This document shows, in pieces, positions 1 to 14,054 of a stretch of 18,710 bases of DNA. Position numbers and translations under genes: made by a program. Location of the stretch: assembly GCA_016932615.1 (NCBI GenBank), contig JAFGCN010000002.1, positions 1 to 18,710 on the forward strand. The letters run 5' to 3'. Position 1 is the stretch's first letter; every line of letters starts with the position of its first letter. The notes beneath the pieces were generated by a model, which saw only the letters and a list, made by a program, of their open reading frames with translations, did not search any database and was not told the origin of the DNA. The stretch is from Candidatus Aenigmatarchaeota archaeon (lineage in GTDB: Archaea > Aenigmatarchaeota > Aenigmatarchaeia > QMZS01).

Positions 1-558
1 AACTATGTAAACGCCTCTAATTCAAATGTGGTTGTATACCAAAGCGGAGTCAAGGACGTAAGCTTTACGAATAACCTTGAAGTAAGGAATGGTGCTATTG
101 ACTTCGCACAGCAGGTCAACTCAGGAAGTTGGGGGTTGACAAACAATGCCTATCTTGAGGGTACGAGGGTTACCTTCCAGGGGGTGACCGTTGGTGCAGT
201 AGATTGCGCCACCTCTAGCTGTGGGGAAATCCAATTCAATCAACATTTGGAAGTCGATGGTTTTTTGGATCCCTGGGCGTATCAGAGACTCGAAAAATCT
301 GATGGAACTAAAATACTGGAGCAGAGGATAGACGTTCTTCCTGGAGGTTGGTTAAGAGTTGACCAGTCAGGATATGCCGGCACCGACAATGGCTTAAGCA
401 AGGGATTCCTTGCACAGTCAGGCTGGTTGCATAGTCCTATCGGTGGTAACAATATAGCTTGGCAAGCAGGATCGGTTGACGGCAACTGGGGATATAATGA
501 AGTACAAGCTGAATGGTGGCTTAACTTCAACCAGATTGTGTCCTTCGGCATGAACTAA
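1..558 (+). CDS. C-terminal part of a secreted or surface protein (5' truncated by window)
   Basis: The frame is open from the first base, so the start lies outside the window; an internal GTG at 28 is not needed as a start. The visible 185 residues are rich in Gly, Asn, Ser, Trp and short alternating hydrophobic stretches, with two cysteines about 5 residues apart (Cys-Ala-Thr-Ser-Ser-Cys), typical of beta-rich extracellular archaeal proteins. No C-terminal membrane segment or sorting signal is visible; the protein ends shortly after an aromatic Trp-Trp-rich segment. It is followed by T-rich DNA suitable for termination. The same-strand neighbours are all predicted secreted or membrane-anchored, which supports a surface role. 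I do not recognise a family; secretion is inferred from composition and context because the N-terminus is missing. Confidence 0.7.
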   Translation, partial: NYVNASNSNVVVYQSGVKDVSFTNNLEVRNGAIDFAQQVNSGSWGLTNNAYLEGTRVTFQGVTVGAVDCATSSCGEIQFNQHLEVDGFLDPWAYQRLEKSDGTKILEQRIDVLPGGWLRVDQSGYAGTDNGLSKGFLAQSGWLHSPIGGNNIAWQAGSVDGNWGYNEVQAEWWLNFNQIVSFGMN

Positions 559-774: not shown

Positions 775-2382
775 ATGCATTCAGAAAAAAACACGGAGGG
801 AAAAAGGAAAACTTTGGGGTGTAACTATCACTTAGAAAAAAATATACTCTACATCCTTGTGGGATTCCTTCTTTTTGCTTCGGCAATCGTAATGGCTGAT
901 GAAAACAGTACCGACGCGGAAACAGATAATACCAATGCCTTCCAGTACACCTTGTTGAATACCACTGAAGGCGCAGACATCTACTCTGAAGTGCACGCCG
1001 GAGGCGACGTAAATTCATACAATTATATTGCCTCGAACGGAAGCGTCCAGGTATATGTAAACGGCAAGAATATAGTAGAAGAAACTGACCTTATCAAGGG
1101 CTATATTGTCGGCAAAGAAAACGACTGGAGCCAGGACGCCACAGGCGTTGATATGGGGGATGTTGTTGAGGCATTCGAAAGAATCGCCCTCTACAAGGCA
1201 GGAGAGACTGACTACCTGAGCGCCTCGGACAGGGCACTTATGAACTACCTGGACCTTGCCCTGTACCTCAATATCAAGACGTACTTCGATGAAAATATAG
1301 AATCGAGAGACAGCGCGCTTAACGCATACCATGACGCAATACAGAATAATGCCTACCAGATAGAGGCAATCTACCGGACACTTGAAAAAAATGACCCTGA
1401 CACTTACTGCCAGTCCAGAATTGAAGTGGCCGAAAAGTACAACCTTGCGACAGTAAAGTGCGGCCTTCATTCGAAAATATGCTACAACGGTGACCTTAAT
1501 ACCATAGAAGACGGAAGAGACTACTGCATACATATAGACAACGATATCGACTACCTCCCATGCCTCAATACTCTTGGAAGGTGTGGAAAGATTGTTGACC
1601 TAAAGGTAGGTCCTGGTGAAGCGGAAAGCTACATTCCGCTTATGCTTACCTACTCAAACCCGGGCAACATGGACCTCAACCCTTCTGTCAGGATATCTCT
1701 TCAGAAGCCGGACACAAATATCGTCGTAAAGTCCTATGAAGAGAACCTTGGAGAGCTTTTAAGCAGGGAAGAGAAAAACTACCAGCTATTCCTCAATACT
1801 GAAGGCGTGCCTAAGGGCAGGTATGAGCTTTGGGTGACTGTTGCTTCAGGAAGAAAGGAGATAATCGAGAAGTTTGACTATGAACTGCTGGAGGTTGGTG
1901 AACTGAAGAGAACTGGCGACTTCCAGGTGCGGGCATCGGGCAGCGAAGACGGAAAAACAGTGACGCTTCTGGGAAGTTTCAAAAATGAAGCCAGTGTCCC
2001 ATACAGCATCAGCATGAATATTGCTGTCTATAGAGATGAGATAAAGATAATGGGGGACGCTTCTCAAAAAGTCTATGTGGGTCCAGGAGAAACTGCAGAG
2101 ATAAGCTATGCCTACAACCCTGACGCGCCAGGAAACTATACCATCGTCGCGGGCATAGACAAAACTGACCTTTCAAAGAGCATAAGCTTCAGCATGGCAG
2201 CGCCTGAAGTGCAGGAAGATTCAACTGACGCCGGACTGATTACTGGAGACTTCATGGTATCCAGTTCGCAGTTTTACGCGATATTGGCTGTCTTGGCGCT
2301 TATTCTTGCAGTAACATACACTGTCAGAAGAGCGGCGTCATCGACGAAGTCAAGAAGAGCGCTTAACGAAGAGCTGATATGA
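775..2382 (+). CDS. Type I membrane surface protein with six-cysteine module (paralogue A)
   Basis: 535 residues. A basic N-terminus and a hydrophobic segment at about 24-40 ending in VMA form a signal peptide; residues 498-516 form a C-terminal membrane anchor followed by a short Arg/Lys-rich tail, giving an extracellular body of about 450 residues. In order: a variable, partly helical part (45-190), a six-Cys module (C212, C229, C236, C251, C263, C270) containing the signatures VKCGLHSK, DYLPC and NTLGRCG, then two beta-rich Ig/CARDB-like domains (about 275-375 and 380-475). The gene at 4915-6474 is a clear paralogue: 52 of 80 residues are identical without gaps across the Cys module, and the two beta domains also align. 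Even cysteine number and extracellular location suggest disulfides. It has its own TATA box and the start is chosen from its spacing. No known family or function is recognised. Confidence 0.85.
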   Translation: MHSEKNTEGKRKTLGCNYHLEKNILYILVGFLLFASAIVMADENSTDAETDNTNAFQYTLLNTTEGADIYSEVHAGGDVNSYNYIASNGSVQVYVNGKNIVEETDLIKGYIVGKENDWSQDATGVDMGDVVEAFERIALYKAGETDYLSASDRALMNYLDLALYLNIKTYFDENIESRDSALNAYHDAIQNNAYQIEAIYRTLEKNDPDTYCQSRIEVAEKYNLATVKCGLHSKICYNGDLNTIEDGRDYCIHIDNDIDYLPCLNTLGRCGKIVDLKVGPGEAESYIPLMLTYSNPGNMDLNPSVRISLQKPDTNIVVKSYEENLGELLSREEKNYQLFLNTEGVPKGRYELWVTVASGRKEIIEKFDYELLEVGELKRTGDFQVRASGSEDGKTVTLLGSFKNEASVPYSISMNIAVYRDEIKIMGDASQKVYVGPGETAEISYAYNPDAPGNYTIVAGIDKTDLSKSISFSMAAPEVQEDSTDAGLITGDFMVSSSQFYAILAVLALILAVTYTVRRAASSTKSRRALNEELI

Positions 2383-2413
2383 GCCAAAGCAAAACAAAAA
2401 TCCTTTTATGATT

Positions 2414-2422
2414 TTTTATAAA
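2414..2422 (+). promoter_or_regulatory. Orphan TATA-like element
   Basis: TTTTATAAA lies in a T-rich stretch 32 bases after the stop of the 775 gene. About 25 bases downstream begins a GC-rich hairpin segment rather than a gene. It may be a promoter of a small RNA or simply part of the T-rich terminator of the upstream gene. Confidence 0.3.
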
Positions 2423-2462
2423 TTCCTACATTCTGAGCGCTTACCGATTTTACGGGCGACCG

Positions 2463-2476
2463 TGCCGTGCGCGGCA
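2463..2476 (+). other. Hairpin with UNCG-type tetraloop
   Basis: TGCCG and CGGCA form a five-pair stem closed by the loop TGCG, which matches the stable UNCG class in RNA. A further five-pair hairpin (AAAAG/CTTTT, 2525-2538) lies near a T run, so 2443-2540 could be a short structured RNA with its own end. Not assigned to any family. Confidence 0.3.
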
Positions 2477-2535
2477 ATCCGGAATGCGCATGCCTGCAAA
2501 ATCTGCGCAGAAAACACTTAGGCCAAAAGAGCCCT

Positions 2536-2651
2536 TTTACCCCGGTAAATATGTCCTGGGCAATATAGTTTACCTGCATAAAATAATACCTTTACCTGAG
2601 TAAATGTTTACTCAACCACATATTTTATTAAAGTAAAATACGGTCTTTACA
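2536..2651 (+). promoter_or_regulatory. Cluster of TTTAC/GTAAA half-sites, putative operator array
   Basis: Five TTTAC (2536, 2569, 2591, 2607, 2646) and three GTAAA (2545, 2600, 2633) occur in 115 bases. They form dyads: TTTACC-CC-GGTAAA (2536-2549), an exact 8-base inverted repeat TGAGTAAA-TG-TTTACTCA (2597-2614), and GTAAA/TTTAC (2633-2650). The first three direct copies are 33 and 22 bases apart, multiples of 11, so on the same DNA face. A TATA-like stretch (2619-2630) sits between the last two dyads, the arrangement expected of a repressed promoter. The binding protein is unknown. Confidence 0.45.
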
Positions 2652-2783
2652 CTGAAAATTAGTGAAGAACGCCTAATAGAACACAGCAGCAACACAAAAG
2701 CATTACAAGAGTTATTATTAATTAATACCATTTTTTCCAAATTAACTAAAGATGAAACGCACCGAATCATTGAACTGGAGTGA
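2637..2783 (+). pseudogene. Coding-like frame of 48 codons with no start codon
   Basis: The frame between TAA at 2634 and TGA at 2781 has no ATG, GTG or TTG, yet its translation reads like a soluble helical protein end, with alternating charged and leucine/isoleucine residues (for example ISEERLIEHS and TKDETHRIIELE). It could be the relic C-terminus of a small regulator, a gene using a rare start such as ATT or CTG, or chance. It is in frame with the next gene across the TGA. Confidence 0.2.
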
Positions 2784-2826
2784 AAACTTTGGGGAGATTC
2801 AAATACCGTCTCGAAAGAGACACAAA

Positions 2827-2836
2827 CCTATAAAAA
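2827..2836 (+). promoter_or_regulatory. TATA box next to the 2838 start codon
   Basis: CCTATAAAAA ends immediately before the ATG at 2838. With normal archaeal spacing, transcription would begin near 2858, inside the annotated reading frame, close to a second in-frame ATG at 2859. Confidence 0.4.
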
Positions 2837-2837
2837 T

Positions 2838-3383
2838 ATGAAAGCACAGATTATTGGAATGTTGGCAGTATTGATGGCAATTGTTCCTGCAATGGCCTAT
2901 ACAAACATCGCCACAGAGCTTAACGCAAACGGTGAGACCCTCGTAATGGAGCAGTCCACCCTTAGAAACGGCTTTGTAGGCACCATCACCGAGAACACCT
3001 ATAACGATGGTAGGATACACATGAACAAGGAGGTAACAACCGTCGCCGGTTGGACCCCTGCATTGTGGGAAGCCAAGGAAGTATTCGCAGTAGGCACAAC
3101 AATGGTCGACAAGAGCGTGGAATGGAATGCAGGATTCTGCAACCAGCCAGCTTACGCTTCAGTCTACACAAAAGTGTCCACCGGATACTGGCCAGTCTTC
3201 AACACTGAGGAAACCAGGATCGACAACGTAGGTTCCGGTTCATACGGCTTCAGCCTTGTGACCGACGAGCCTGTGTTCTACAAAGAGTCAGTCGGAATCA
3301 GCAGGTCTGGTTTCGTCGGGCTTGACTGCGACCCTGCAGAGCCTGTAGTGCCTGAAGAGCCATTCTGCACACTCTGCGACTAG
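2838..3383 (+). CDS. Small secreted protein
   Basis: 181 residues with a classical signal peptide (one Lys, hydrophobic core, ending VPAMA; cleavage after residue 20). The mature part is rich in Thr, Val, Gly, Tyr and Trp with alternating hydrophobic residues, suggesting a small beta-rich domain; four cysteines are visible, one near the middle and three near the end (the last two as CTLC) after a Pro/Glu-rich linker. There is no membrane anchor, so it is probably released or assembled on the surface. The start at 2838 is preferred because it supplies the signal peptide n-region, but the TATA box lies directly before it; ATG 2859 would fit promoter spacing but leaves a very short leader. Strong T tracts follow the stop. 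No family recognised. It lies between the paralogous six-Cys membrane proteins, suggesting joint function. Confidence 0.75.
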   Translation: MKAQIIGMLAVLMAIVPAMAYTNIATELNANGETLVMEQSTLRNGFVGTITENTYNDGRIHMNKEVTTVAGWTPALWEAKEVFAVGTTMVDKSVEWNAGFCNQPAYASVYTKVSTGYWPVFNTEETRIDNVGSGSYGFSLVTDEPVFYKESVGISRSGFVGLDCDPAEPVVPEEPFCTLCD

Positions 3384-3396
3384 TATCGCAGGGACA

Positions 3397-3427
3397 TTTT
3401 TGTTTCTTTTTTCTTGGGATTTTTTAA
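3397..3427 (+). terminator. T-rich terminator after the 2838 gene
   Basis: Three successive T tracts of five or six bases begin about 13 bases after the stop codon, typical of archaeal intrinsic termination. Confidence 0.5.
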
Positions 3428-3450
3428 AATTACTTACTTTACTACTGCCT

Positions 3451-3460
3451 GCTATATCTA
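3451..3460 (+). promoter_or_regulatory. TATA-like element
   Basis: GCTATATCTA predicts a transcript start near 3480. No clear gene starts there; a 30-codon frame from GTG 3471 to 3563 is the only candidate product. Confidence 0.25.
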
Positions 3461-3470
3461 AGGTATTGTG

Positions 3471-3563
3471 GTGAATGCGGACACAGAGGTCCAGAAAGCA
3501 GACGTGAGAGTTCCAAAGCGCCAGGCAACCGAAGAAGAGACAGAAGAAATACCAAAATCCTAA
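3471..3563 (+). CDS. Possible 30-residue peptide (weak)
   Basis: A frame from GTG 3471 to the TAA at 3561-3563 encodes a highly charged 30-residue peptide rich in Glu, Lys, Arg and Thr, without hydrophobic segments. The nearest TATA-like element (3451-3460) would place the transcript start after the GTG, and there is no convincing Shine-Dalgarno sequence. The charged, non-random composition is the only support; chance is the main alternative. Confidence 0.12.
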   Translation: MNADTEVQKADVRVPKRQATEEETEEIPKS

Positions 3564-3628
3564 AGCAAAACTACAGAAAATTGCTTGGGTAACCTTAACG
3601 AAGCCGTAAAGTAGTGCAGAATTAATGC

Positions 3629-3637
3629 GTTATATAG
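3629..3637 (+). promoter_or_regulatory. TATA box for the 3659 gene
   Basis: GTTATATAG is centred about 26 bases upstream of the ATG at 3659 and so supports that ATG over the TTG six bases earlier. Confidence 0.6.
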
Positions 3638-3658
3638 CCATTTTGCGCTAATTTGGTT

Positions 3659-3952
3659 ATGGAATTCAAAAAATATGCCCCCAAATATTTGGCCCTTCTA
3701 TTGGCTCTGTCGATCATGGCAACATTGCCGGCAATGGCAGACACTTCCTCCTGCAGCACCCTGCAAACACAAGGCATAACAACCTTAACCAAGACAATAA
3801 CTGTAACTTCCGGAAGCTACAGCTTCATGAATCTGGCCATATATCCAAACAAGCTTCCGGCGCTGGAGTTTTCCTGGGGCCCTGCACCATACACTTACTC
3901 AAAAACCTACACAAATCCCCGGTACAGCATCTCAATCCTTAACACAGGGTAG
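3659..3952 (+). CDS. Very small secreted protein
   Basis: 97 residues from ATG 3659; the in-frame TTG at 3653 is less likely because the TATA box spacing points to 3659. The N-terminus has Lys-Lys and Lys followed by a long hydrophobic core ending in LPAMA, a signal peptide with cleavage after about residue 27. The mature part is only about 70 residues, rich in Ser, Thr, Tyr and Pro, with a single cysteine and no membrane anchor. It shares the PAMA-type cleavage site with the secreted proteins at 2838 and 4915. A T-rich terminator follows. I do not recognise the family. Size and location suggest a subunit or decoration of a surface structure, which is inference only. Confidence 0.65.
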   Translation: MEFKKYAPKYLALLLALSIMATLPAMADTSSCSTLQTQGITTLTKTITVTSGSYSFMNLAIYPNKLPALEFSWGPAPYTYSKTYTNPRYSISILNTG

Positions 3953-3964
3953 CAGCCCAAGAGA

Positions 3965-3980
3965 ATTTTTGTTTATTTTT
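3965..3980 (+). terminator. T-rich terminator after the 3659 gene
   Basis: Two five-base T tracts begin about 13 bases after the stop codon. Confidence 0.45.
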
Positions 3981-4021
3981 GGCTTAAATGCCTGCCACAG
4001 CAAAACTGCTTTTGGAGTATG

Positions 4022-4030
4022 TTTAAATAA
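4022..4030 (+). promoter_or_regulatory. TATA box for the 4051 gene
   Basis: TTTAAATAA is centred 25 bases upstream of ATG 4051, predicting a leaderless mRNA. Confidence 0.6.
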
Positions 4031-4050
4031 TCAAGTAGTGTAGATTTTAT

Positions 4051-4740
4051 ATGAAAGCGAGTGTGAAATTTCTGGCCCTGGCATTACTGGGGATAATCGT
4101 TCTCTTAAGCCCAGCGTACGCAGGGCTTACTATGCATAGCGACGTCGACTGCACAGGAGACTGCACAGTAAAGCAGTCCTACAATGGCGACAGCGTCGAG
4201 GTCACGACAAGCGGCAAGGTAAGCATGACAACCAAGGGTGACGGGGAGAAGGCAGAGGTAAGTGTAGAGGCCGAAGGAGAAGGGGAAGCAAAAATCACCA
4301 AAAGTGACGGGACTTCATCAACCGTAAAAATCGGGAGCAGTTCAGGAAGCTCCGGCTCCACGAAAACATCCGGCGCGGCAACCATTGCTTCTGAAGCGGT
4401 TACCAATGCAAGCAGCAGCACAAGCACTGTTGGAAGCGCCGCAAACGAAGCCCTGTGCAATGGAACAGACACAACCTGCGGGGAAAACTCAACCGAAGAA
4501 AATTCCGAAAGCTGGATGTGGGAAACCAATGCGGCGACAATAATCTACTCGGGTGATGCAAACGGCAGCAGCCCTGAAACTTCAGGCCAGGGGCAGGAAG
4601 AAAACCTAAATGCCGGAACCGGAAAAACAATCGTCGAAGCAAATGCCGACGGGAGTGAAGAGCGCCTGGAAGAGGACGGGCCTTTCCAGAAGATATACCA
4701 ATTTTTTGAGCAGCTCACCCTGAAAATCTGGTTCTTCTAA
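4051..4740 (+). CDS. Secreted low-complexity Ser/Thr/Glu/Gly-rich protein
   Basis: 229 residues. Residues 1-24 are a signal peptide (two Lys, hydrophobic core, SPAYA). Residues 31-95 alternate short beta-prone segments with Gly/Asp/Lys turns, including a run of acidic Glu/Gly dipeptides; 95-130 is nearly all Ser, Thr, Gly and Ala; 135-210 is acidic and Asn/Ser-rich. Four N-glycosylation sequons are visible (N119, N137, N146, N171) and four cysteines. Unusually, the chain ends with an aromatic, hydrophobic segment, PFQKIYQFFEQ followed by LTLKIWFF, too short for a membrane span and possibly amphipathic. This layout suggests an extended, glycosylated stalk with a sticky end. No family recognised. 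Its own TATA box lies 25 bases upstream and T tracts follow. Confidence 0.7.
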   Translation: MKASVKFLALALLGIIVLLSPAYAGLTMHSDVDCTGDCTVKQSYNGDSVEVTTSGKVSMTTKGDGEKAEVSVEAEGEGEAKITKSDGTSSTVKIGSSSGSSGSTKTSGAATIASEAVTNASSSTSTVGSAANEALCNGTDTTCGENSTEENSESWMWETNAATIIYSGDANGSSPETSGQGQEENLNAGTGKTIVEANADGSEERLEEDGPFQKIYQFFEQLTLKIWFF

Positions 4741-4755
4741 AAAGAAGCCAGAGCC

Positions 4756-4797
4756 ATTTTATAAGATTTTTTAAGGTCAAAAACAGCCGCATTTTTT
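4756..4797 (+). terminator. T-rich terminator after the 4051 gene
   Basis: Three T tracts (4757-4760, 4767-4772, 4792-4797) follow the stop codon within 60 bases. Confidence 0.4.
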
Positions 4798-4885
4798 GTC
4801 ACAAAACAGTCAAAAACAGGGCAGAACGGCATAAGAGTAGTATTGTAATGCTTGTGTAATGAGTATGTATTTCTCAGAAGATAGT

Positions 4886-4896
4886 AAAAATAAATA
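4886..4896 (+). promoter_or_regulatory. TATA box for the 4915 gene
   Basis: AAAAATAAATA is centred 24 bases upstream of ATG 4915, but only about 9 bases from the upstream in-frame ATG at 4900. This selects 4915 as the start. Confidence 0.5.
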
Positions 4897-4914
4897 CCTA
4901 TGTCACTATACATT

Positions 4915-6474
4915 ATGACAAGTAACAGCGATATTCGGATTAACTATTCAGCATTACTCGGTGTCTTTATAATGTCACTGATGCTAATGACTCCAGCGAT
5001 GGCAACACAGGTTTACCAGGCAATAACAGTAAACGGAACCGGAAGCATATTCCAGGGTTTCGTCAACGAAGAGATGATCTACGAGCAGGTAATCTACATT
5101 GACGGTGAAGCATACCTTAACATCACATACGAAGACGGCTCCAACAGAATAATGGAGCTTGAGGACTACGTAGCTTCAAAAGAAGCCCAGTGGACTACTG
5201 ACGGAAGGGGAATAAGCATGTTGGACGTCGCCCAGGCCCTTGACAAAGCGGCAAGATACAAGCTTGGCGAAGCCGACACGCTAACCGACAACGAAAGGGC
5301 TATACTTGCATCGATTGAGGCCATATCCGGCTCCAATATCGATGAGTTCTATGCAGCTACAATTGCCCCTATGGGAAGAACAATTGAAGGCCAGCAGAAG
5401 CAGATAACCCAGAACACCTACGAGATAGAGGCCCTATACAGAACACTCGAAAAGACAGACCCTGAGGTTTACTGCCAGTCCAGGATGGAAATCGTAAAGA
5501 AATACAACCTTCCAAGCGTCAAGTGCGGGCTTCACTCAAAGAGGTGCTACAACGGAGAGATTTACCTTCAGGAGGGAGGAAAGGACTTCTGCGTCCACAC
5601 AGAGGATTACATCGACTACCTTCCCTGCTACAACACACTCGGAAGATGCGGAAGAGTTGACAAGATAGACATCCTAGACAGCGAAGAAAAAAGCTACACT
5701 CCAATCAAGGTGACATTCACCAACCCGGGACTAATGGCCCTTAAGCCAAAGCTCACTATAGAAATTCAGGAAGAATACTCCTACGAGAGCCTGAAGACTT
5801 ACGAACAGGAGCTTGGAGAAGTTCTGGAGGGGGAAACAAAAACCTTCATTGTCTACTTCGACAACACCGGGCTTGCACCTGGAAGAAACTACAAGATGAT
5901 TACCACTGTTTCATCCGGCCGAAAGGATGTACTCGAAACATTCGACTACTCTCTCAAGCCGGAAGGAACCTTCGAGAAAGTCGGAAAGCTTGAGGTCAAA
6001 TACTCGGAACCGGGATACAAGAAGGAGATGGAGATAGCTGGTGCGTACACAAACCTTGCAGACTATCCTTACTCGGTTGTCATGACCGCAGAGATATTCC
6101 TTGAGGGAAAAAGGTATGCAGAAACAAGAAGCGACGCCCTTGCTGTGAAGCCAGGCGAATCAAAGGAGATAACACTGGCCTACAAGCCAGACCTAGAAGG
6201 AAACTACACAGTCCTTGTAAAGGTGGAAAAGACCACACTAAAGGAGATGGTAATATTCACGGTGGAAAAGCCGTCTCTTACAGGCATATTCATAAGCGCA
6301 ATAACAAAAGTGCCTGAGGGGCAGGAGCCAATAGCTTTCAGTGAGGAAAACATCCGGGAAAATGGCATGACTCTGGCACTGGGCGCTTTCGCGCTGCTTG
6401 TGTCCGTCATATCGACCGCCCTTTACTGGAGAAAGTCCTCAGCAAGCTCCAACAGTAAGCCGGAAGTTGTCTAG
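4915..6474 (+). CDS. Type I membrane surface protein with six-cysteine module (paralogue B)
   Basis: 519 residues from ATG 4915, chosen over ATG 4900 from TATA spacing. A signal peptide ends in TPAMA near residue 31 and a membrane anchor lies at about 484-503, with a short basic tail. Like its paralogue at 775-2382 it has a helical N-terminal part, the six-Cys module (C187, C204, C211, C226, C238, C245; spacing 17-7-15-12-7, identical in the paralogue) and two beta-rich domains of Ig/CARDB type ending near 452. The N-terminal 150 residues have diverged most, while the Cys module is most conserved, suggesting a common fold or partner interface with different specificity. It is the last gene of the surface block; T-rich DNA follows at 6482-6536. 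Function unknown; an adhesin, receptor or structural scaffold would all fit. Confidence 0.85.
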   Translation: MTSNSDIRINYSALLGVFIMSLMLMTPAMATQVYQAITVNGTGSIFQGFVNEEMIYEQVIYIDGEAYLNITYEDGSNRIMELEDYVASKEAQWTTDGRGISMLDVAQALDKAARYKLGEADTLTDNERAILASIEAISGSNIDEFYAATIAPMGRTIEGQQKQITQNTYEIEALYRTLEKTDPEVYCQSRMEIVKKYNLPSVKCGLHSKRCYNGEIYLQEGGKDFCVHTEDYIDYLPCYNTLGRCGRVDKIDILDSEEKSYTPIKVTFTNPGLMALKPKLTIEIQEEYSYESLKTYEQELGEVLEGETKTFIVYFDNTGLAPGRNYKMITTVSSGRKDVLETFDYSLKPEGTFEKVGKLEVKYSEPGYKKEMEIAGAYTNLADYPYSVVMTAEIFLEGKRYAETRSDALAVKPGESKEITLAYKPDLEGNYTVLVKVEKTTLKEMVIFTVEKPSLTGIFISAITKVPEGQEPIAFSEENIRENGMTLALGAFALLVSVISTALYWRKSSASSNSKPEVV

Positions 6475-8387: not shown

Positions 8388-8416
8388 GGCTGGCATTGAT
8401 CACGGCACTGTATCTT

Positions 8417-8599
8417 ATGGCAGACTCGTCGCTGAAGACCTTCTTCGGGAATTCCGACGAGACCATCGAAGTGCAGGCAGGCACCTCAAAGTGCGAACAG
8501 CTCTGTTACAAGTGCTGTATGGAGAAAGGGGCGGAGGTTTGTGAAAATCCAATAGAATTTGGAAATATCTATAAAATCATTTGCAATTGTAATTGTTAA
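8417..8599 (+). CDS. Small cysteine-rich protein
   Basis: 60 residues from ATG 8417 (a TTG at 8396 is an alternative start but lies too close to the TATA-like element). Eight cysteines: one cluster of four (CEQLCYKCC), one single, and a C-terminal cluster CNCNC after KIIC. No signal peptide follows from ATG 8417, so it is probably cytoplasmic, where such spacing suggests metal (zinc, copper or iron) binding rather than disulfides. It does not match a zinc ribbon or ferredoxin pattern that I know. It follows the citramalate synthase by 48 bases and converges with the minus-strand gene ending at 8655. Function unknown. Confidence 0.5.
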   Translation: MADSSLKTFFGNSDETIEVQAGTSKCEQLCYKCCMEKGAEVCENPIEFGNIYKIICNCNC

Positions 8600-11648: not shown

Positions 11649-14054
11649 CTACTTCTTTAGCTTGGTAGTGTTTCTCCTTTTTGCCAGCATAACTGCCACT
11701 ACCAGGACTGCAATAAGCACAATGGAGATAGCCAATTGAACCGCTCCAAAATGCATCTTCTCTACGGACAGAAGGTCACTGACTTGAAAGGCGTCCCTGG
11801 CAGAAGAACTTTCCGAAGCTGTTTTGAAGGCAGCAGAGCCAATAAGCATAAGGTCGTCTTCCATGGCTTCCCTCCCATTGCTGTCAACGCATACAGAGCA
11901 GTTCTGGGTATAGCTGCAGCTCTCCGAAACCTGCCGGGTCTGGTAACCCTGGCTTGCGCAATAGTTGTAATCTGTTCCGGTGTTTCCGGACATAAACTCC
12001 CAGGCTTCATACTCTACATTCTCTGAAACAGCGCAAAAGCCCCTGTCACCCCCATTTTCCGATTCCCGTACCCGGTACTCATACCCTAGGTCCCCACAGT
12101 ACTGCGCTGCAGGATTTGGGCCCGGGGCATAGCCAAATCCTAAAGAGCCCAAGCCCATGAAAGATTCCAGCTCTGAAACGGAAGGTGAGTAGTCAAGTGA
12201 CTCCTGAAAATCAGGAACGTCTCCCGCCTCTTCGACCCCGGTAATGTAATTTAGAGGCGCCATCCTCTCCAGAATAATATTGCAGGAGCGATAGCTAATC
12301 AGTAGGTATCCTGGAGGGTAATTGGGCTCCTGGGTCCGCTCGCCCCAGCTATTCCGGACAATCCAGGAATTTTCACTGTCATCCCAACCGACAATCACCA
12401 CTGCATGGCCATATGCCTGATCCAGACAGTAATCATGCTCACAGGTATGCGTGTCATAATGGAAGCCCTTTAGAGTAGATACCGCTGCAATAACCGGGCC
12501 ATAGTCCATAATCGCCTGCTTAACCTGGCCAATATCTGCACCTGGGCTTCCATAACCCGTTACAAGGTAAGACTCATCACAAACCGCATCTTCCGGGCAG
12601 GACATGGAAGTGCAGGGCTCAGACTCCACGCAATAACTGGAGGAGCAAACATATTCTGCGCAGCCCTCATCGTCAGTCTGCTTCAGTGGACACTTGGTCT
12701 CTGAATATCCAAGGCAAGACTCAACAGGAATGGGCAGCTCATGTTCAACCAGGAACTCAAGCACTGCTTCAGGCCACTCTCCCATGCAGCCGCCCCCACC
12801 CGAAAGGCAGGAAACCAGAAACTGCTCCGACAGGTCAGGTGCATCAACGTCATCCCCGTTCTTGTACGCTTGGTAAGCATAAGCGCCGCTTACCGCAGAC
12901 GAAATCGCAAACGCCCAGCAAGAGCCGCATATTCTCTGGTCCTCAACCGGAGGCATGTAGTCTATAACATCAAAACTTTCAGGCAATCCTTCCCGGTTGA
13001 CAACTACGCTGTCCTCAGCCCAGTAAGACTCTTCGCCGCAGAAGCACTCCATTGAAAACTTTCTTTCGCCAGTCACCCGGGTCGGAGTAATTCCCACCCA
13101 ATCCAAATCCGCCTCAAACTGCTCACCGTCAGGGTCTTCATATTCTTCATAATGGACTAGAGCAAGAAGTTCTCCCGAAAGACTCTGATCAACCTTCTCC
13201 CTCTCATCATAATGAACCCTACAGTAGTCGCAGGATTCTACATCTCCATCCTCGTCAAGGTAGAAGGCATCTATATTGAAGTACGCCACACTTGTATCGC
13301 CTACCTTCACGATTTCATCCTCATCAAAGCTGGTTTCAAGATGCACATAATACCCGGGGCAGGAACTGTCAGCTTTGCACTCATATCCCGGCTTACTGAG
13401 GATACCCCCCTTATTAAAATGGCACTTCTCGCCAAGTGCGCACTCCAAATCCTCGTCCTCATCGCAGACAACGGGTCCGCACTCACCAATATTTACCTCC
13501 ACGCCATCAGATGAGGAACGGTCACCGGTCAGACCTCTCCGAAGGGGAACGCAGCAGGACTCTTCCCCACAATCAAGGAAATCTTCGTGGATGCGCTCGG
13601 TCTCCGTGTCACATGAAGCGCTGCAGTGGCCGCCCTGCCGGGCACATGTCGCAAGTTCGTCCACTACCTCCTGCTTGACCATTACCACCTCCTCAACAGC
13701 CCTCTTCTCAGTTTCGGATCCTGCAAGAAAGGAATATTCAAACGCCACCAGGTAAGTTCCATACTCGGGAAAGTTCAGCTTATCCAAGGGGACTTGGAAC
13801 ACATAGCCACCTGGGGGAACTCTAAGGTTTGCAGTCTCCAGGCCATTATCCTCCAGGCATGCTGAAGTCACATCCACCCTTGAGCCAGAATGTTCCAAAA
13901 AAACCTTAACCTCTCCTTCAAGTGGCTCACCGTAGGCGTTATTGATGTCAAAATAAACAAACTCCCTGAAAGGGGATACCTCCTGTGCAAAGGCGGGAAG
14001 AACGCAGAGTAGAGATGCCAGAAGCGCAAAAGTAACCCTACGCAAGAATGACAT
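11649..14054 (-). CDS. Secreted membrane-anchored papain-family (C1) cysteine protease
   Basis: 801 residues. Signal peptide 1-23 (AFAQ); C-terminal membrane segment about 769-790 followed by KRR, so the body faces outside. Residues 25-130 form a beta domain; 137-235 and 330-340 are very cysteine-rich; the C1 domain spans about 358-600. Catalytic residues are visible: Q373 (oxyanion hole), C379 in CGSCWAF (Q-C spacing 6 as in papain), H550 in YGHAVVIVGW and N568 in RNSWGE. A cysteine-rich insert (446-492) lies between the Cys and His halves. After it, 645-690 resembles DUF333 (NPAAQYCGDLGY ... GFCAV ... WEF). There is no classical ERFNIN pro-segment, so activation is unclear. A GGAGGTG ribosome-binding site eight bases before the ATG marks an operon-internal gene. 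Last gene of the histone-nuclease cluster; shared function is not implied. Confidence 0.9.
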   Translation of the reverse strand: MSFLRRVTFALLASLLCVLPAFAQEVSPFREFVYFDINNAYGEPLEGEVKVFLEHSGSRVDVTSACLEDNGLETANLRVPPGGYVFQVPLDKLNFPEYGTYLVAFEYSFLAGSETEKRAVEEVVMVKQEVVDELATCARQGGHCSASCDTETERIHEDFLDCGEESCCVPLRRGLTGDRSSSDGVEVNIGECGPVVCDEDEDLECALGEKCHFNKGGILSKPGYECKADSSCPGYYVHLETSFDEDEIVKVGDTSVAYFNIDAFYLDEDGDVESCDYCRVHYDEREKVDQSLSGELLALVHYEEYEDPDGEQFEADLDWVGITPTRVTGERKFSMECFCGEESYWAEDSVVVNREGLPESFDVIDYMPPVEDQRICGSCWAFAISSAVSGAYAYQAYKNGDDVDAPDLSEQFLVSCLSGGGGCMGEWPEAVLEFLVEHELPIPVESCLGYSETKCPLKQTDDEGCAEYVCSSSYCVESEPCTSMSCPEDAVCDESYLVTGYGSPGADIGQVKQAIMDYGPVIAAVSTLKGFHYDTHTCEHDYCLDQAYGHAVVIVGWDDSENSWIVRNSWGERTQEPNYPPGYLLISYRSCNIILERMAPLNYITGVEEAGDVPDFQESLDYSPSVSELESFMGLGSLGFGYAPGPNPAAQYCGDLGYEYRVRESENGGDRGFCAVSENVEYEAWEFMSGNTGTDYNYCASQGYQTRQVSESCSYTQNCSVCVDSNGREAMEDDLMLIGSAAFKTASESSSARDAFQVSDLLSVEKMHFGAVQLAISIVLIAVLVVAVMLAKRRNTTKLKK

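Follow-up and report, generated by a model that had tools for sequence, protein, structure and literature searches.

Introduction

In the S-layer of Sulfolobales, an anchored stalk, SlaB, which is composed of beta-sandwiches, a coiled coil and a C-terminal transmembrane helix, is combined with SlaA, a more variable secreted partner rich in beta structure. In SlaB, three N-terminal beta-sandwiches are followed by a 132-residue helix with the transmembrane segment (PMC10903991). The archaeal thread (Saci_0406) and the TasA/camelysin filaments are formed by small beta-rich proteins that are secreted by Sec/SPI, independently of class III signals, and in archaeal threads the subunits are joined by donor-strand complementation (PMC9715654). 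Type IV pili and archaella also act at the cell surface, and genes for an S-layer and an archaellum have been reported from Aenigmarchaeota, as have type IV pilus genes from those of hot habitats (PMC8407114).

The DNA analysed here (the window, 18,710 nucleotides) is the beginning of contig C2 of an aenigmatarchaeal genome of 1.26 Mb in 29 contigs. The explanation that best accounts for its genes, and which we hold with about even confidence, is that they encode cell-surface complexes in which small secreted beta-rich proteins are combined with a coiled-coil stalk, either A or B. To our knowledge, the mechanism by which DPANN archaea make contact with their hosts and neighbours is mostly unknown, and a stalk with fast-evolving partners offers a concrete, testable gene set for this contact. 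Pfam, NCBIfam and PHROGs contain no family for A, B or s1 to s3. The set is linked to a tailed virus that carries a partner gene. No account of this gene set was found in a limited literature search, and it is probably an undescribed cell-surface structure.

Results and Discussion

Organization of the locus

Five open reading frames, A, s1, s2, s3 and B, are found on the forward strand where the original prediction had placed them. A (775..2382, 535 residues) and B (4900..6474, 524 residues, or 519 if M6 at 4915 is the start) are paralogues, with 39% identity over 387 residues by BLASTP (E 3e-104). By the simple hydropathy rules used here for all signal peptides and membrane helices, each has an N-terminal hydrophobic signal and one C-terminal transmembrane helix. 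In A the signal peptide is followed by the N-terminal region, a coiled coil, the six-cysteine module (1408-1584), two Ig-like domains assigned by alignment to B (about 1588-2214) and the membrane helix (about 2257-2325). B contains a core module (5164..5556) made of a helical domain, a long heptad helix and the motif YC-x16-CG, a six-cysteine stretch (residues 192-250, 5473..5649), the tandem Ig-like domains (residues 249-457, 5644..6270) and a C-terminal membrane helix (about residues 487-510, 6358..6429), before which lies a TGxF motif common to the other anchored members. As a sorting signal general to proteins of this genome with a C-terminal anchor, the motif was not borne out, given that only 6 of 25 carry it.

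The cysteine spacing is 17-7-15-12-7 in both proteins (residues 212-270 of A and 192-250 of B), and the cysteine stretch is their best conserved part. The best ungapped stretch of 80 residues has 53 identical positions, where 52 had been counted originally. By region, the identity is 24% in the mature N-terminus, 36% in the helical part, 64% in the cysteine stretch, and 37% and 30% in the two Ig-like domains. The predicted picture of two anchored paralogues with a shared cysteine pattern, two beta-rich domains and diverged N-termini is thus upheld by BLASTP, hydropathy and a structure model of B. This model has a mean pLDDT of 59 and is reliable only for the Ig pair (about residues 249-457), which gives Ig-like fold matches with Z scores reaching 12.7 across 93 residues. 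The helices at residues 80-202 precede the Ig pair and include a long helix, H147-186, of moderate confidence. The fold of residues 249-457 is that of tandem Ig-like surface proteins (CARDB, the GH2 domain, the transglutaminase C-terminal pair), with CARDB matched by sequence only below threshold; it is, however, a generic fold, and these proteins leave the core module of B uncovered.

Between A and B lie s1 (2838..3383, 181 residues, with a C-terminal tail ending in EPFCTLCD), s2 (3653..3952, 99 residues from a TTG, or 97 from the ATG at 3659) and s3 (4051..4740, 229 residues). All three have an N-terminal signal and no further membrane stretch by hydropathy, which agrees with the secretion proposed for them, while the description as tiny does not suit s1 and s3. 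Direct reading places PAMA at the signal end of s1, s2 and B, that is, in three of the five proteins, as had been stated. A TATA-like box at leaderless distance had been described for most of the genes; it does fit the open reading frame starts of A (-26), s3 (-29) and s2 (-24), the last fitting the ATG at 3659 better (-30), but for s1 and B it fits an internal methionine only (M8 at 2859, -30, and M6, -26), and it is uncertain where translation of s1, s2 and B begins. Upstream of A, at the position of its small partner, a truncated open reading frame (1..558, forward strand) encodes the C-terminal 185 residues of a beta-rich protein whose remainder lies beyond the contig start; it is an orphan, with no clear homologue in 156 Aenigmatarchaeota genomes. 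The best reading of this layout is that the window carries two stalk-partner sets, one formed by the truncated frame and A, and the other by s1, s2, s3 and B.

The stalk family and its conserved core

A profile of the core, comprising the coiled coil and the cysteine motif, was run over 156 Aenigmatarchaeota genomes and about 236 other archaea. It matches 9 of the 156, in six taxonomic families (f1, f8, f10, f11, f13 and f19), and apart from two weak matches (E 0.008) none of the other archaea; within the genomes searched, the stalk is restricted to Aenigmatarchaeota. Many of these genomes are fragmented or incomplete, and the absence counts are lower bounds. The patchy spread nonetheless argues against an essential structure. 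When contigs were scanned with B alone nothing was returned, and the alignment returned three named Candidatus Aenigmatarchaeota MAGs; kinship with these named homologues places the window in the phylum.

The relatives of B are full length in G001, G025 and G057 and shorter in G020, G039, G097 and G108, and that of G010 is a fragment at a contig end. The part common to the nine-member alignment is a helical region, a heptad helix and Y-C-x16-C-G, conserved in all members. Heptads are present in every row, with 7-9 of 10-11 a/d sites hydrophobic. Among the invariant columns are those of C192 and C209 in B, the only two cysteines kept throughout, so that the six-cysteine pattern does not serve as the family signature that it had been taken for: C216 and C231 of B are also kept in f13, which has four cysteines, and all six occur in f1 alone. 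The C-terminal anchor likewise fails as a defining trait, given that the tandem Ig domains and the transmembrane helix are confined to f1 and f13, while the stalks of the four remaining lineages (f8, f10, f11 and f19) end without a clear transmembrane helix. The G020 stalk bears a different Ig-like domain, Big_13. The Ig pair, the anchor and the cysteines other than C192 and C209 are lineage additions to a conserved core.

An insertion, LGYDDExHIN-IWxxCQ, is common to the stalks of f10, f11 and f19 (L047 6385-8025, L046 7390-8457 and L050 4279-5499). Proteins of G000:C28, G002, G006, G009, G032, G149 and G154 match the Ig region only; they are of a different kind and were not counted as stalks. 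Sub-threshold matches such as those to YldA, LacZ_4 and Oxysterol_BP were dismissed. No convincing match came from PDB sequences searched with a profile, and A, B, s1 and s3 match none of the PADLOC anti-phage defence models.

Gene neighborhood and partner families

The original prediction had called for a check of whether the module is regularly accompanied by small secreted genes. Eight loci extend far enough in the upstream direction to be tested (B, G001, G025, G057, G039, G020, G097 and G108, from six families). In every one of them, a co-directional small secreted gene of 125-326 residues lies directly upstream of the stalk, and in G039 and G108 there are two. No homologue was found scattered singly without partners, and none matches a known family. 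For comparison, 21 of 339 genes sampled in the window's genome (6.2%) have such an upstream neighbour, a baseline that comes from one genome and a heuristic signal-peptide rule. The plain product over the eight loci is about 2e-10; given that the loci are related, weight is put on the six taxonomic families and not on this product. Chance clustering of ordinary secreted proteins could be considered because the genome is rich in secretion, with 17% of its genes looking signal-bearing. With eight of eight neighbours against the 6.2% expected, and with the same partner family recurring beside stalks across taxonomic families and having no cellular copy elsewhere for the families searched, this explanation is extremely unlikely.

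The partners belong to several unrelated families, and s1, s2 and s3 show no clear relationship among themselves. The homologue of s1 is the gene that immediately precedes the G097 stalk in f8 (z 6.6 after removal of signal peptides), that of s3 immediately precedes the G001 stalk (z 12.2), and s2 has no homologue in the sets compared. Other families are shared by G025 and G057 (62%), by G020, G108 and a virus, and by G039 and G108 (E 7e-31). One partner family can thus stand beside stalks of different taxonomic families, as seen for f1/f8, f10/f19 and f11/f19. Partner and stalk co-occur: in the class-wide search, which covered the s1, s3, G025/G057 and G020/G108 families, no copy was found away from a stalk in the 156 genomes, except on one tailed-virus contig. 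The family of G020, G108 and the virus is also absent from the about 236 other archaea.

The stalk loci have further neighbours. Upstream of the set and co-directional with it, an ArsR-like winged-helix gene (L047 4811-5254, L046 1958-2383 and L050 7278-7586) is present in three genomes, G020, G039 and G108, the G020 and G039 copies being homologous (36%, E 2e-21). The nearness of regulators, the rapid divergence of the partners and the presence of two paralogues in one genome could fit a receptor-ligand or effector set, in which the small proteins act on other cells, as toxins or signals, and are received or neutralised by the anchored protein. Given that no catalytic or toxin family is matched, that the anchor is absent in four lineages and that the stalk has a short cytoplasmic tail with no signalling domain, we regard such a set as distinctly unlikely.

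Long cysteine-rich secreted genes adjoin the set in five loci. They encode proteins with up to 116 cysteines (L046 2439-5597, L050 1-4156, L047 8255-11026 and L044 3807-6459), two with disintegrin-like matches.

The main rival to a stalk with secreted heads is a filament of the thread/TasA kind, in which strand exchange or end-to-end stacking would join the small beta-rich proteins into a polymer, with the stalk as its cap or its base in the membrane. The small proteins have Sec-type signals with AxA-like ends and beta-rich, Gly/Thr sequences; the subunits of archaeal threads, too, are processed by Sec/SPI. When the N-termini were read and checked with a regular expression, no convincing class III signal was seen in the small proteins; motif matches in s1 (KAQ), G020 (RAI) and G108 (RSE) are attributed to chance, given the AxA-like signal ends. 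No pilin or machinery gene of type IV pili or archaella was recognised in the window. In G001, the genes just downstream of the stalk are two of the TasA/camelysin type (PF12389) and one that resembles a signal peptidase (L053, identical to L043, 2407-3738, 6267-7001 and 7041-7867). These neighbours match PF12389, but none of the small proteins or stalks scanned does, and no small protein matches a pilin or other subunit family in Pfam. Unlike threads and TasA filaments, the set has a dedicated coiled-coil companion gene and several unrelated small families in place of one repeated subunit, and an AlphaFold2 model of one small partner from a two-row alignment gave no confident fold (pLDDT 27). 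A filament is therefore considered a real but minor possibility.

For the stalk with secreted heads, the following steps may be proposed. The small beta-rich partners, made from the genes directly upstream of the stalk, would leave the cell via the Sec pathway. The stalks would oligomerise through the coiled coil, and the invariant C-x16-C, probably a disulphide, would lock the oligomer. The N-terminal region of the stalk would bind the secreted partner and hold it as a head. In f1 and f13 the tandem Ig domains and the transmembrane helix would keep the rod on the membrane, while in f8, f10, f11 and f19 the rod would end without such a clear segment. From one lineage to the next the partners diverge rapidly, as would be typical of proteins that face a host, a neighbouring cell or a virus, and for this reason adhesion or cell contact is probably the function. 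The surface assembly of scaffolds and subunits first proposed for the locus is supported in so far as secreted partners recur, and weakened in that the anchor and the additional cysteines are confined to two lineages.

This arrangement resembles the SlaA/SlaB pair in having a membrane-anchored stalk, which combines a coiled coil with beta-sandwich domains and a C-terminal transmembrane helix, and a secreted, more variable beta-rich partner, here encoded beside the stalk in every testable locus. It differs in that the coiled coil of B precedes the Ig pair, reversing the order of SlaB, the partners are small and a cysteine motif is added. Given the reversed order and the presence in only 9 of 156 genomes, the stalk is neither a member of the SlaB family nor part of a general S-layer. 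The best reading is that the set may work like the SlaB/SlaA stalk-canopy pair by analogy, without homology.

A partner gene in a tailed virus

The one copy of a partner gene away from a stalk is on G076:C1, a contig of 21,866 bp (L098/L099) from an Aenigmatarchaeota MAG, also present as IMG/VR 3300014886_000074. It carries virion genes for the terminase large subunit, portal, major head and neck proteins. The partner gene is 45% identical to that of G108 and 37% to that of G020, and its orientation is opposite to that of the virion genes. It is followed, on its own strand, by a gene of 144 residues with a signal peptide and heptads, which ranked second of 2001 against the N-terminal half of the stalk when compared with shuffles using one profile, and was not at the top with another. 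The resemblance is weak, and kinship of this coiled-coil gene to the stalk is only suggestive, as far as these sequence comparisons go. A second viral match, L102, was dismissed as a bacterial phage without the partner gene.

The pairing of partner and coiled-coil genes on this contig would fit surface genes that began or still circulate on tailed viruses and modify the surface of the host, perhaps so that other viruses are kept out. This is a single viral contig, however, with no further one found and none in INPHARED; the kinship of its companion gene is suggestive, and the remaining loci sit among cellular genes, all of which makes a viral origin or sharing of the set quite improbable. That a previously undescribed, lineage-specific contact apparatus of Aenigmatarchaeota, with a coiled-coil stalk and interchangeable secreted heads, has also been taken up by their tailed viruses to change or block the cell surface is a reading that we consider doubtful.

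Elsewhere in the window, a cysteine-rich open reading frame of 67 residues without family match (8396-8599, forward strand) follows a LeuA-like gene. A candidate archaeal surface protease is encoded on the reverse strand (11649-14054); it is a secreted enzyme of the papain type (Peptidase_C1) that also contains DUF333, numerous cysteines and a transmembrane helix at the C-terminus.
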